This document shows positions 25,954 to 29,855 of a DNA stretch of 54,607 bases, in pieces (positions within the stretch are counted from its first letter, which is position 1; each line of letters opens with the position of its first letter). The DNA lies in the NCBI GenBank assembly GCA_016197225.1, contig JACPWC010000117.1, positions 1-54,607 of the forward strand. Reading direction: 5' to 3'. The stretch is from Chloroflexota bacterium. GTDB taxonomy: Bacteria > Chloroflexota > Anaerolineae > Anaerolineales > VGOW01. A program made the position numbers and the translations under genes. The notes beneath the pieces were generated by a model. It did not search any database, had not been told where the DNA came from, and was given only the letters and a program-made list of their open reading frames with translations.

Positions 25954-26193
25954 AGAAGCCACTCAGCCGGGAAGGAACGAATTCGTTATATCCTTGAATT
26001 CGTTGTAGTGTGGAACGAGCCTGAGCAGTTGCGTTGAGGTGGGGCGCTCTAATCCGCCCACAACCCCTGGTTCTAAGTTGCCCTTGATTCTGCCGGGGCG
26101 CTTCCCCTACAGAACCAAAGGTAGTGTTTTGAACAACGCTGCCCAGCGGATTAGAGAACTCAACCCGGCCTCAACCTTAGCTTTCAAAGCAGT

Positions 26194-26221
26194 TTGCCCC
26201 CTCCAACATTTCGAGTATGAT
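26194..26221 (+). promoter_or_regulatory. Promoter of KAP-FGE gene
   Basis: TTGCCC (26194-26199), a 16-bp spacer and TATGAT (26216-26221) precede ATG 26228 so closely that the mRNA would begin at or next to the start codon. The rest of the 25954-26193 gap has an open frame in phase with the gene but no domain similarity. Confidence 0.5.
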
Positions 26222-26227
26222 CACTTC

Positions 26228-28414
26228 ATGCCCCACCTCCTCACCCCGCGCATCCTCCACGACCTGCCGCTCGACCAGCCGGACGACGTGGCCGAGTTCA
26301 ACTTCCACGAATACACCAACACCTTCGCCCGCCTGATTGCCGACCCGGCCACGCGCACGCCGCTGGTCATTGGCGTGAGCGGCAAGTGGGGCAGTGGCAA
26401 GACGACGCTCCTGCGTACCTTGCAAGCCAAGCTGGACGAGACTCAGGCCCTCAAAGAAAATCTGTCGAAGCTCTCGTTTGCCAACGACGACGACGAGAAC
26501 AAAAACTTCCGCCGATGCCGCACGGTCTGGTTCAACGCCTGGAAATACGCCGACGAGGACGAACTGCTGGTGGCGCTGGTGCGCGTGATCGTGCAGACCA
26601 TGTCGGAAGATAGTATCGTCTCTCAAGTTTTGAGCAAATTGAACGACCCGGCCTATCCTCGCCGCGACGTGGTCGCCACCGTGCTCAGTTGGTTCGCCAT
26701 CAAACTGCCCGGCGATGTCGAAGTTGGCCTGAACACCGGCACGCCCAAAGAAACGCCCTTCGCTCAAAAGACGGCCCTGCTCGATTTGTTCATGGAAACG
26801 TTCGATCACTTGTTGGCGGTTTGGGTGAGCGGCAACCTGTTCGAGAAAAAGATTGACCCGAAGCGCAGTGTGGTAGCCGTGTTCATTGACGACCTTGACC
26901 GTTGCCTGCCCGACAAAGCGGTGCAGGTGCTGGAAGCCATCAAGCTCTTCCTCGACCGGCCCGGCGTGGCCTTTGTGCTGGCCGCCGACGAAGACGCAGT
27001 GCAGGCCGCGATTGAAGCGCACTATCAAACACAGAAGATAACCGGTCAGCGCGCCGCCGACTATCTCGAAAAGATTTTTCAGGTTCGCTTCGGCTTGCCG
27101 CCGCTTTCTTCCTCGCAGGCCGCCGGTTATCTTGCCACGAACCTGGGCAAGCTGGACGATCAACTTACGCAGAACCTGGACTTGATCATTGCCGGGGCTG
27201 AAGCCAACCCCAGACTGCTCAAAACCTTCGTCAACGACCTCAACGTCAACTGGGCAATCCTGCAAAACGCCGGGCTGGCCGAGGGCACTTCGCAAGCCGA
27301 CTTTATGCGCTGGCTGGCCCTCAACCGGGTCAGCCCGGCCTTTGGCCTGAAAGTCCGCGAATTGCACAAGGACTCGCGGCTCGACTTCATTCGCGACGCG
27401 GCCAAGTGGGTGGACGACCGGAGCCACAAGACCGGCGAGTTTAGCGAGTGGGAAGGCTACGAGCACCGCCGCCTGCGCGACGTGCTAAAACGGATTGCGT
27501 TTTCGGCAACCGTGACGCCGGATGTTTTGGATCGGTTTATCTTCTGGGGCGCGCCAGTTGTACAAACACTAGTGGAAAAGGAGGGAGCAATCTCGGCTGG
27601 GGTCGGGTTGAGCGGCGAAGTGTCAGTGACTCGCGCCGAGGCCGAAGTGAGACGCACTGTAGAACTTGCCCGCATTGCCGCCGACCCCTCCCTGCCCGAT
27701 TATTGGATTCCAATTCCCGCCGGCAAATTTGTGATGGGTAGCCGAGACGACAACAAACAGGCGCGAGATGACGAGCGCCCACAGCACACAGTTGAGATTC
27801 CTTATACTTATCGCATCGCCCGCTATCCAGTCACCAACGCCGAGTTTGCCGAGTTTGTTCAAGCGGCAGGTTACAAATCCGATGCAGTGAAAGCCGACTT
27901 GCCCGATCATCCCGTCGTCAACGTCTCCTGGCGCGACGCGCAGGCTTACTGCAAATGGTTGACTGAGAAGCTTCGCGCTGAGGGAATAATGGGCGCAAAA
28001 GAGATTGCCCGCTTGCCGACCGAGGCCGAGTGGGAGAAAGCGGCACGTGGTGAATATGGCAAGGAGTGGCCGTGGGGCGACGAGTGGGATGCAAGCAAAT
28101 GCAACTCCCGCGAAGGCGGGCCGGGAACGACAACACCCGTTGGAAAGTATTCCCCTCAAGGCGACAGCCCTTACGGCGTGGCCGACATGGCTGGCAATGT
28201 GTGGGAGTGGTGCCAATCGAAATATGCACCGTATCCTTACAAGGTAGACGATGGCCGAGAAGATTTAGCTGGCGACGAACGCCGGGTGTTGCGGGGCGGT
28301 TCCTTCTTCGGCTACGTTGGGGGCGCCCGCTGTGCTTTCCGCTACGGGCACTACCCGTACAGCAGGTTCAGGAACCACGGTTTTCGGGTGGCGGCGTCCC
28401 CGTTCCAACTCTGA
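26228..28414 (+). CDS. KAP P-loop NTPase fused to FGE-sulfatase (C-type-lectin fold) domain; putative DGR target
   Basis: From ATG 26228 the protein has 728 residues; a longer in-frame start (26039) adds unsupported sequence. Residues 1-370 are a KAP NTPase: GVSGKWGSGKTT (Walker A, about 52), VWFNAWKY, VFIDDLDRC (Walker B, about 216) and NPRLLKTFVNDL. Residues about 490-728 form a formylglycine-generating-enzyme-like domain (PAGKFVMGS, RYPVTNAEF, RLPTEAEWEKAARG, NVWEW, VLRGGSF, GFRVA). The end of this domain carries an aromatic-rich patch with NNC codons, the hallmark of regions diversified by diversity-generating retroelements. KAP-FGE fusions are known from NTP-dependent conflict systems. 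No membrane segment is obvious, although KAP proteins often have one. Confidence 0.88.
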   Translation: MPHLLTPRILHDLPLDQPDDVAEFNFHEYTNTFARLIADPATRTPLVIGVSGKWGSGKTTLLRTLQAKLDETQALKENLSKLSFANDDDENKNFRRCRTVWFNAWKYADEDELLVALVRVIVQTMSEDSIVSQVLSKLNDPAYPRRDVVATVLSWFAIKLPGDVEVGLNTGTPKETPFAQKTALLDLFMETFDHLLAVWVSGNLFEKKIDPKRSVVAVFIDDLDRCLPDKAVQVLEAIKLFLDRPGVAFVLAADEDAVQAAIEAHYQTQKITGQRAADYLEKIFQVRFGLPPLSSSQAAGYLATNLGKLDDQLTQNLDLIIAGAEANPRLLKTFVNDLNVNWAILQNAGLAEGTSQADFMRWLALNRVSPAFGLKVRELHKDSRLDFIRDAAKWVDDRSHKTGEFSEWEGYEHRRLRDVLKRIAFSATVTPDVLDRFIFWGAPVVQTLVEKEGAISAGVGLSGEVSVTRAEAEVRRTVELARIAADPSLPDYWIPIPAGKFVMGSRDDNKQARDDERPQHTVEIPYTYRIARYPVTNAEFAEFVQAAGYKSDAVKADLPDHPVVNVSWRDAQAYCKWLTEKLRAEGIMGAKEIARLPTEAEWEKAARGEYGKEWPWGDEWDASKCNSREGGPGTTTPVGKYSPQGDSPYGVADMAGNVWEWCQSKYAPYPYKVDDGREDLAGDERRVLRGGSFFGYVGGARCAFRYGHYPYSRFRNHGFRVAASPFQL
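28304..28378 (+). other. Putative DGR variable region within KAP-FGE gene
   Basis: Between the conserved RGGS and GFRV, the codons TTC TTC GGC TAC ... TTC CGC TAC GGG CAC TAC ... TAC AGC ... TTC ... CAC keep C at the third base while the first two vary. This is as expected if AAC codons of a template were mutated at adenines. The encoded residues are mainly Phe, Tyr and His, as in diversified lectin-fold surfaces. No template repeat or reverse transcriptase is visible in this window, so a DGR would have to act from elsewhere. Confidence 0.5.
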
Positions 28415-28472
28415 ACTCTGGCTACTCTGAACTCTGGGGACTCTGGGCCGCTGGTCTCTGAGGGGGTGGGGT

Positions 28473-28499
28473 CTGGGGCGGGGGTGTCCCCCGCCCCAG
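28473..28499. repeat. 12-bp GC hairpin downstream of putative variable region
   Basis: CTGGGGCGGGGG (28473-28484) pairs with its complement (28488-28499) around TGT, 59 bp after the KAP-FGE stop. Known DGRs need a hairpin just behind the variable region for efficient retrohoming; this may be its counterpart, or simply a GC-rich terminator without T-run. Short CTCTGAACTCTGG repeats lie between the stop and the hairpin. Confidence 0.5.
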
Positions 28500-28539
28500 C
28501 GGTGAAGATGATTTGAAGTAGTAAGGAGTGGGTAGCTGG

Positions 28540-28651
28540 CCCCTACCCCGGCCCTCCCCCGCTGGAACTGCACCAGCAGGGGAGGGAGTTGACTCCCCTC
28601 CCCTGTCCCGCGTGATGTTCGCGGGACGGGGGAGGGGCTGGGGGTGGGGGC
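28540..28651. repeat. Multi-hairpin repeat, copy A, left of DUF559 gene
   Basis: A 112-bp element has outer arms (CCCCTACCCCGGCCCTCCCC with GGGGAGGGGCTGGGGGTGGG), an inner hairpin GCTGG/CCAGC, a second hairpin of purine/pyrimidine tracts (AGGGGAGGGAG/CTCCCCTCCCCT) and a third (GTCCCGCG/CGCGGGAC). It is a direct repeat of copy B (29051-29158). The third stem differs in sequence from copy B but stays paired, which indicates structure is maintained. Confidence 0.85.
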
Positions 28652-28670
28652 AGTACGCGGTAAATCAACT

Positions 28671-29042
28671 ATGCCCAATCAACCTCCCAAACGCATGCGC
28701 GCCCCTCGTGTGATCCAGGAACGCGCCCGGCAACTGCGCCGCGAAATGACGCCCGCCGAAAAGAAATTGTGGGCGCGGCTCCGTTTCGACCAGCTTGACG
28801 GCTTTCAGTTCCGGCGGCAACACGCCGTCGGCAACTTCATCCTCGATTTCTTCTGCGCGAAGGCCAAGCTGGTGGTGGAGTTGGATGGCGACTCACATGC
28901 CGATCAGGTTGAGTATGACGAAGAGCGAACGAAGTGGTTGAACGAGCAGAAGCACTACCGAGTCATCCGGTTTACAAATCGTGAAGTGAATGAGAATATT
29001 GAGGCAGTGGTGGAAAAGATAAGAGAAGAGTTGAAGGGGTAA
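28671..29042 (+). CDS. DUF559 endonuclease-like protein flanked by structured repeats
   Basis: This 123-residue protein starts at ATG 28671. The core is the DUF559 pattern: LRREMTPAEKKLWARLR, GFQFRRQHAVGNFILDFFC and LVVELDGDSHADQ, followed by RFTNREVNENIEAVV. This is a Vsr/restriction-endonuclease-like fold with conserved E..D/E acids. The gene fills the space between two direct copies of a ~110-bp multi-hairpin repeat almost exactly (19 bp before the start, 8 bp after the stop), which makes the trio look like one mobile unit. A nuclease acting on the repeats is an inference. Confidence 0.85.
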   Translation: MPNQPPKRMRAPRVIQERARQLRREMTPAEKKLWARLRFDQLDGFQFRRQHAVGNFILDFFCAKAKLVVELDGDSHADQVEYDEERTKWLNEQKHYRVIRFTNREVNENIEAVVEKIREELKG

Positions 29043-29050
29043 GGCAACAG

Positions 29051-29158
29051 CCCCCACCCCGGCCCTCCCCCGCTGGAAGAACGCCAGCAGGGGAGGGAGC
29101 GGACTCCCCTCCCCTGCGACGTGTTCCTCGTCGCGGGGGAGGGGCTGGGGGTGGGGGC
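29051..29158. repeat. Multi-hairpin repeat, copy B, right of DUF559 gene
   Basis: Same layout and orientation as copy A: CCCCCACCCCGGCCCTCCCC outer arm, GCTGG/CCAGC, AGGGGAGGGAG/CTCCCCTCCCCT, then GCGACG/CGTCGC instead of copy A's third stem, and GGGGGAGGGGCTGGGGGTGG as the closing arm. It begins 8 bp after the DUF559 stop and ends 22 bp before the next gene. Confidence 0.85.
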
Positions 29159-29180
29159 CGAGTCGCGGAGACCAACAGTT

Positions 29181-29855
29181 ATGATCGCCCTCATCGGCGG
29201 CAACGAATTTAGAGAGAACTGTCGCGAGATGGATCGAGCGCTCTTAGCTCGACTCGGCACGAGCGCGCGGGTGCTGGTGATTCCAACAGCCGCCGCCAAC
29301 GAGTCGCCGCGGCAGGCGGCCAACAACGGCGTGGCCCACCTCAAACGGCTGGGCGCGAAAGCCGAGCCGCTCTACGTCATTCAGCGCGACCACGCCCAAG
29401 CGGACGAGATGGTTGCCGCTATTCGAGAGGCGAAGGGCGTGTACTTCAGCGGCGGCGACCCCGTGCATCTGTTGGAAACTCTGCGCGGCACGAAAGTGTG
29501 GCGGGCCGTCGTCGAGTTGAGCGAGCGCGGCGGACTGGTGGCCGGGTCGAGCGCGGGGGCGATGGTGATGGGCGGCCAGATGTGGACGCCGGGGGCGGGA
29601 GCCGGTTGGCGCGAGGGGTTGGGCCTGGTTCCAGGGCTGGCCGTCATTCCCCACCATGCCACCGTAGCAACCCGCTGGAACGCGGCCAAAATGCGAGAGT
29701 CGCTCGCCCCCGAAGTCACGCTGGTCGGCATTGACGAAGCGACGGCGGTCTTGTTCCCCGATCATTTGGTGCTGGGCGAAGGTGAAGTGACGGTCTACAC
29801 GTCCGAGCCGAAAACTTATGCCTCAGGAAAGTTAGTTGCGGAGAAGTTGGATTGA
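29181..29855 (+). CDS. Peptidase S51 / cyanophycinase-like protein
   Basis: This 224-residue protein starts at MIALIGGNEFRENC. It has the S51 class-I amidotransferase-like fold with VLVIPTAAANES, YFSGGDPVHLLETL and nucleophile GSSAGAMV (Ser near 121), then IPHHATVATRWN (His). Relatives are dipeptidase E and cyanophycinase, which cleave Asp- or Arg-Asp-containing dipeptides; the substrate here is unknown. The upstream region is occupied by repeat copy B, so the promoter may lie inside the repeat. Confidence 0.82.
   Translation: MIALIGGNEFRENCREMDRALLARLGTSARVLVIPTAAANESPRQAANNGVAHLKRLGAKAEPLYVIQRDHAQADEMVAAIREAKGVYFSGGDPVHLLETLRGTKVWRAVVELSERGGLVAGSSAGAMVMGGQMWTPGAGAGWREGLGLVPGLAVIPHHATVATRWNAAKMRESLAPEVTLVGIDEATAVLFPDHLVLGEGEVTVYTSEPKTYASGKLVAEKLD

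Follow-up and report, generated by a model that had tools for sequence, protein, structure and literature searches.

A KAP-NTPase/FGE protein of a Chloroflexota bacterium carries a probable DGR variable repeat with no matching template found in its assembly

Introduction

Diversity-generating retroelements (DGRs) of clade 5D in multicellular bacteria act on target proteins that combine a STAND NTPase, sometimes a KAP NTPase, with a CLec domain, and DGR-diversified NTPase-CLec proteins have been put forward, as a proposal only, as antigen sensors (Dore et al. 2024, PMC10907252). In FGS-domain counter-invader systems, a KAP ATPase can take the place of STAND (Kaur et al. 2021, PMC8195603). Lectin tips diversified by a DGR and carried on a KAP NTPase are not new to the literature (PMC10907252; architecture in PMC8195603). 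In CLec variable proteins of solved structure, the variable residues face the solvent, and formylglycine-generating activity has been judged unlikely for DGR variable proteins (PMC6328139). At the target site of the BPP-1 DGR a hairpin is required, the stem sequence of which may vary (Guo et al. 2011, PMC3240598). By its own account, a large metagenome survey used an approach that would miss DGR targets far from their retroelement (PMC8144416).

Here, we analyze a KAP-NTPase/FGE gene from a Chloroflexota genome and argue, from comparison with relatives and paralogues, that its stretch 28301-28399 is very probably the variable repeat of a DGR target. The locus offers a KAP-NTPase receptor with a tip that, judged by relatives that keep their templates, appears to be a DGR product, and a case in which diversified receptors seem to outlast, or sit apart from, the machine that generates them.

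Results

The window, i.e., the whole stretch of DNA that was analyzed (54,607 nucleotides), contains an open reading frame at 26039-28414 (791 aa; stop codon 28412-28414). Alignment with relatives places the start of the gene probably at ATG 26228, and the encoded protein divides as follows.

26228..28414, + strand: KAP-NTPase/FGE gene, 728 aa from ATG; the open reading frame opens at GTG 26039
26306..27247, + strand: KAP P-loop NTPase domain (Pfam PF07693, KAP_NTPase; residues 90-403 of the 791-aa frame, 4.2e-46)
27704..28393, + strand: FGE-type C-type-lectin-fold domain (Pfam PF03781, FGE-sulfatase; 4.9e-57 to 1.1e-56)

Assignment to the KAP family is predicted from a PF07693 score of 158 bits against a cut-off of 20, and the NTPase resembles the PADLOC models of QatA, PDC-S20, and PifA in profile matches. 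Pfam and PDB sequence matches likewise predict a C-type-lectin-fold scaffold: among PDB entries the FGE enzymes score highest, and the Treponema denticola DGR variable protein 2Y3C is also matched (1.1e-9). The apparent tie to formylglycine-generating enzymes is one of family match only. Pfam recognized no effector or adaptor domain in the protein, which ends in SFFGYVGGARCAFRYGHYPYSRFRNH-GFRVAAS. Its closest match among named genomes comes from a metagenome-assembled genome that carries the label Anaerolinea thermophila (45%; the match spans residues 5-665, up to the end of the contig there). Downstream of the gene, two similar GC-rich stretches (28540-28650 and 29045-29160), perhaps a mobile or palindromic repeat, lie on either side of a small open reading frame at 28644-29042; an Rfam search over 28000-29200 gave no match.

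The candidate variable region lies at the extreme C-terminus, between RGG and GFRV (28301-28378, SFFGYVGGARCAFRYGHYPYSRFRNH).

28301..28399, + strand: probable DGR variable repeat, in ungapped register with the templates of G002, G124, and G273 and with the paralogue on contig C71; variable codons 28307-28378
28379..28401, + strand: conserved 3' end of the variable repeat (GGTTTTCGGGTGGCGGCGTCCCC), place of a possible IMH; near-identical in C71 and in the G124 and G002 templates

A sequence-only reading of this DNA had pointed to the wealth of Phe, Tyr, and His in NNC codons here. The observation holds, with 15 of the 23 codons counted in 28301-28378 ending in C, yet it is a weak signal alone against 41.2% third-position C upstream in the gene; since third positions are already 41% C, we dropped NNC density by itself as proof of DGR action. 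Codon-level comparison with the C71 paralogue was more telling. Twenty codons of the two repeats differ in the encoded residue, and their mismatches fall on codon positions 1, 2, and 3 in numbers of 16, 12, and 2, compared with 80, 84, and 90 over the 117 codons upstream of the repeat. In an ungapped comparison, on which this figure rests and for which both repeats are of equal length, the third base thus differs in 2 of 20 residue-changing codons versus 90 of 117 upstream (Fisher 1.4e-8). A MAFFT alignment that places a gap inside the repeat weakens the third-base effect to p values of 0.006 (window and C71), 0.0004 (window and C65), and 0.07 (C71 and C65).

The differences also concentrate where a DGR would put them. 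Of the 99 bases compared between the window repeat and that on C71, 31 differ, and with each of four third-party templates 19-20 of the differences fall on the template's adenine sites, which number 27-29 (one-sided p of 1.9e-7 to 2.1e-6). With the correctly registered templates of relatives (nine of ten; G273_C103 was left out), the window repeat differs more at adenine sites than elsewhere in all nine comparisons, from p 1e-5 with G124 (19 of 28 adenines and 14 of 71 other bases) to p 0.04 with G010. The C71 repeat behaves more weakly than the window repeat against the same nine (p<0.05 in four). As a control, the FGE tail on C7 gave p >=0.17 with eight templates and 0.04 with G054; the tail on C31, which bears the sequence tract described below, showed the adenine bias with all nine. 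The window repeat is collinear and gap-free with the templates of G002, G124, and G273, and it is with relatives' templates only that the concentration at adenines was obtained.

Protein-level variation follows the same division. Thirteen KAP-FGE tails of equal length share several invariant scaffold residues, and their mean entropy is 2.47 bits at the 11 template-Asn positions versus 1.13 at the 19 others (Mann-Whitney 0.002), a contrast part of which is to be expected from any lectin loop. This set omits L183 (contig end), L185 and L190 (tail not found), L187, L189, L198, L201, and L206.

Relatives of the locus were then compared at increasing distance. Among 61 genomes (the own genome and 60 relatives), DNA similar to the window repeat occurs in nine and a reverse transcriptase of the type encoded on the own contig C116 (E 1e-40) also in nine, the own genome being counted in both. 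Of 301 genomes sampled from the order, the own one among them, 40 contained a relative of the KAP-FGE protein (E 1e-60), and of the 27 genomes chosen next, 13 contained a DGR-type reverse transcriptase (E 1e-25). Three scans for template/repeat pairs returned 8 of 12, 8 of 26, and 1 of 18 loci, respectively. Two of the pairs in the first scan are the same locus, with 3 non-adenine mismatches, and the other six have none in 70 bases; the own C116 gave no pair. Other matches in the second scan were simple repeats or mirror images. Including one pair on the own contig C59, 17 distinct pairs were obtained, two of them in KAP-FGE proteins. The KAP-FGE protein of G273 (Pfam KAP + FGE; 47-48% identical to the window protein) has a reverse transcriptase, Avd, and template behind its gene, and over 33 codons 14 of 29 adenines and 0 of 70 other bases of the template are changed in the repeat. 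In G124 (Pfam KAP + FGE; 38%), the template follows the gene at a distance of 344 bases, and the repeat departs from it at 9 of 28 adenines and at 2 of 71 non-adenines. Together with the footprint in the window repeat and a DGR-type reverse transcriptase in the own genome, these two relatives with adjacent, adenine-biased templates lend good support to the proposal of the sequence-only reading that the KAP-FGE protein carries a DGR-diversified lectin surface.

Reverse transcriptase fragments turned up downstream of KAP-FGE genes in both G214 and G257. Two contigs, at L233 (start of G243 C143) and at L098 (contig end), stop immediately ahead of a KAP-FGE variable repeat, as though the assembly had broken at that point; in G243 the end lies exactly before the first variable codon. 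One contig of G017 (C18; L080, L081) holds six or more FGE genes of NACHT, caspase, or KAP type bearing such tips and tracts, and no DGR reverse transcriptase was detected in that genome at E 1e-25. Two pattern matches arose in a search for relatives in viral contigs, none of which was confirmed.

The own genome (4.8 Mb, 126 contigs, 97.95% complete) encodes four RVT_1 proteins. One exceeds the NCBIfam group II intron cut-off and two, best matched by group II or retron families, stay below the cut-offs; a retron-like reverse transcriptase below NCBIfam cut-offs lies on C114 (L003:1261-2301). The fourth, on C116, has a full open frame and the motif LPIGNLTSQ, which we take to be typical of DGRs. 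It matches the PHROG 1423 reverse transcriptase family at 8.5e-119, the same family as the enzyme of the complete cassette in G002 (same genus), and has sub-cutoff matches only in NCBIfam. The search of the genome for a DGR-type reverse transcriptase that the sequence-only reading had called for thus returned one. Behind it lie an Avd with an open frame of 67 aa and one half, the 3' one, of a template; all three stand at L017:15395-16724. This Avd is the only match of its kind in the genome (residues 1-79 of 121, with stops), no other being found at E 0.1; judged by eye against G026, the truncated Avd and the half template were apparently fused by one deletion. The C116 contig ends upstream of the reverse transcriptase in sequence that looks hairpin-like, and C55 stops within an FGE gene, short of the repeat (both by eye). 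In the 54.6-kb window, tblastn with DGR reverse transcriptase and Avd queries gave no reverse transcriptase and a single Avd match at E 0.089, in agreement with the earlier statement that the window contains no reverse transcriptase.

The other search called for, that for a genomic template equal to the repeat except at A positions, came back empty. With 28200-28480 as query, the own genome yielded at E<0.1 only the window itself, C71 (76%), and C65 (73%), the latter two matches extending beyond the stop codon; the C116 template region found nothing but itself below E 0.1. A query with the G002 template retrieved a template-like stretch on C59 (L025:4736-4806; 90% over 51 bases), 148 bases behind a NACHT-FGE gene (L025:1405-4587) with which it forms a pair (changes at 13 of 18 adenines and at 1 of 53 non-adenines). 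No reverse transcriptase was detected by tblastn in the surrounding 6.5 kb, the gene that follows presumably encodes an Obg GTPase, and the sequence behind the template resembles the stretch between template and reverse transcriptase in G026. Neither stretch is the template of the window repeat, because 7 of 33 non-adenine bases (codons 14-30) mismatch for C59 and 17 of 38 for the C116 remnant, and both were discarded as its source. Since no cognate template was found in the assembly, we call the variable repeat an orphan.

Two elements follow the repeat.

28409..28460, + strand: YTCTG-repeat tract, six copies, between variable repeat and hairpin
28473..28499, no strand assigned: GC hairpin, perfect 12-bp stem and 3-nt loop

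An inverted repeat downstream of the variable repeat, as seen in DGR targets, is present as the hairpin at 28473-28499. It begins 58 bases behind the stop codon (59 bp in the sequence-only reading, which had recognized it correctly as real and of the expected kind) and 73 bases from the repeat, and folds as DNA at -17.1 kcal/mol (shuffles mean -9.4, z -4.05). Its shape and place agree in the window, C65, and both G002 targets, while the stem letters differ. Perfect stems of at least 7 bp were present within 220 bases of 10 of 20 repeats, two of them beyond 140 bases, and no hairpin was found behind the G273 KAP-FGE repeat. The hairpin is less general than the YTCTG tract.

The tract is distinctive: out of 1982 windows of 110 bases on both strands of the 54.6-kb window, the only one with at least four YTCTG copies is the tract at 28409-28460 itself. 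Behind the repeat, the first 110 bases carry at least two copies at 16 of the 17 paired loci and at least four at 12, and behind the template they carry at most one (Wilcoxon 1.3e-4); in the background of the same loci (696 windows), none has four copies and 12 have at least two. Tracts follow the own-genome FGE genes on C117 (KAP), C71 (NACHT-like), C59 (NACHT), C31 (caspase), and C65 (N-terminus without assignment), and no copy occurs on C7, C48, C83, and C85, in a survey of the genes with an available 3' end, to which those on C38 and C55 do not belong. The C31 gene (L019:1494-3338) encodes a caspase-like (Peptidase_C14) protein with an FGE tip, which, given its adenine bias against nine templates and its tract, is likely another DGR product. 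Elsewhere, at least two copies were found in 2 of 70 FGE tails from named loci (one Chloroflexi, one Planctomycetota genome from metagenomes), and among 24 FGE relatives with a readable end, 13 have at least three copies and about six have none. The tract is common, not universal. We found no description of it in the literature, including a full-text search for CTCTGA, although a motif text search that leaves figures and supplements uncovered is weak evidence.

Discussion

The footprint, the DGR-bearing relatives, and the flanking elements all emerge from sequence comparison, which makes a DGR origin of the repeat very probable, in the following scenario. A DGR reverse transcriptase would have taken as its template an adenine-rich stretch of the type SFNNNxRNARCAxRNNNxPxNRNNNxGFR, replacing adenines at random, and the cDNA would then have replaced 28301-28399 in the KAP-FGE gene. 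Adenine mutagenesis of this kind would scramble the first and second codon bases, preserve the third, and leave the scaffold residues of the lectin unharmed. The site would be marked by the hairpin, perhaps also by the YTCTG tract ahead of it, and 28379-28401 may act as IMH. The product would be a lectin-fold tip with randomized residues joined to a KAP NTPase. We infer that binding of a ligand to the tip, perhaps one of phage or foreign-cell origin, may cause the NTPase to assemble or signal in defence; ligand binding and its relay by the KAP NTPase to a response belong to this proposal, as would any present activity, and not to what the comparison shows. The window copy is an orphan here: either a cassette absent from the assembly serves it in trans, or it became a fixed receptor once its DGR had decayed.

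Explanations diverge on how the orphan came about. We favor fixation after decay, at about an even chance, because the template is missing and Avd is truncated: an ancestor's DGR would have made the repeat, its cassette would have been lost or broken, and the protein would now be an ordinary fixed receptor. The truncated Avd and half template on C116, the C59 template without reverse transcriptase, and the absence of a cognate template from the assembly fit this account, and G214 and G257, where reverse transcriptase fragments follow the KAP-FGE genes, exemplify such decay in other genomes. Against it, the C116 reverse transcriptase retains its full open frame, and assembly gaps fall at suspicious places, namely the hairpin-like end of C116 and the end of C55 before a repeat.

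These same points, and the G243 contig end before the first variable codon, also permit a live remote target, a reading we hold as possible though doubtful. A matching template would then lie in an unassembled part of the genome, and a reverse transcriptase of C116 type or another would act in trans, as has been argued for in Thiohalocapsa (PMC10907252). At 97.95% completeness, however, neither a template nor a full Avd appeared, and contig ends near repeated sequence also have other causes. The earlier proposal of a remote DGR target is kept in part: the adenine footprint and the genomic reverse transcriptase back a DGR-diversified surface, and a working remote target stays conjectural, like the effector or assembly response suggested with it, as searches of the assembly yielded no template, the C59 and C116 stretches do not fit, and the only Avd found is truncated.

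That the tail is an ordinary FGE domain shaped by family consensus and GC-rich codon usage, with no DGR involved, is highly improbable: the scaffold RGG..R....P..R....GFR does recur in the tract-less tail on C7, and third positions are 41% C anyway, but C7 lacks both tract and, with eight of nine templates, adenine bias, while the window repeat combines third-base conservation, concentration at adenine sites, and a YTCTG tract, and has KAP-FGE relatives with template/repeat pairs.

Within the preferred reading of 28301-28399 as a DGR variable repeat, the YTCTG tract is the least explained part of the locus. Tentatively, it may be an undescribed target-recognition element of this DGR lineage, placed behind variable repeats and not behind templates, and the five tract-bearing FGE genes of this genome would then form a DGR-made receptor repertoire kept after decay of the machine. 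If so, orphan and remote DGR targets could be found from sequence alone, without a template, including the distant targets that the survey approach misses (PMC8144416).

Comparison with known systems

The hairpin likens the window to the target of Bordetella phage BPP-1, where a GC-rich hairpin also lies downstream of the repeat. The phage examples given there have stems of 7-10 bp, 4-nt GRNA loops, and distances of 4-34 bp from the repeat, whereas the window hairpin has a 12-bp stem, a 3-nt loop, and a distance of 73 bases with a repeat tract between (PMC3240598). Treponema denticola variable protein 1 (PDB 2Y3C), an FGE-subtype CLec DGR variable protein, is matched by the window domain at 1.1e-9 but is described as a single domain with no NTPase, unlike the window protein (PMC6328139). 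The FGS counter-invader systems share with it the pairing of a KAP-type NTPase with an FGE/FGS domain; as far as the protein itself is compared, the window protein differs from the systems described there in having no effector or adaptor domain by Pfam (PMC8195603).

Closest are the clade 5D targets, with which the window protein has in common a central NTPase and a C-terminal FGE/CLec domain that bears the variable repeat (PMC10907252). That paper names the KAP NTPase, counts filamentous Chloroflexi among the hosts, and describes incomplete loci and candidate remote targets. Unlike the clade 5D targets it presents, the window repeat has no template among the assembled contigs, which makes it an orphan, and is followed by a YTCTG tract.
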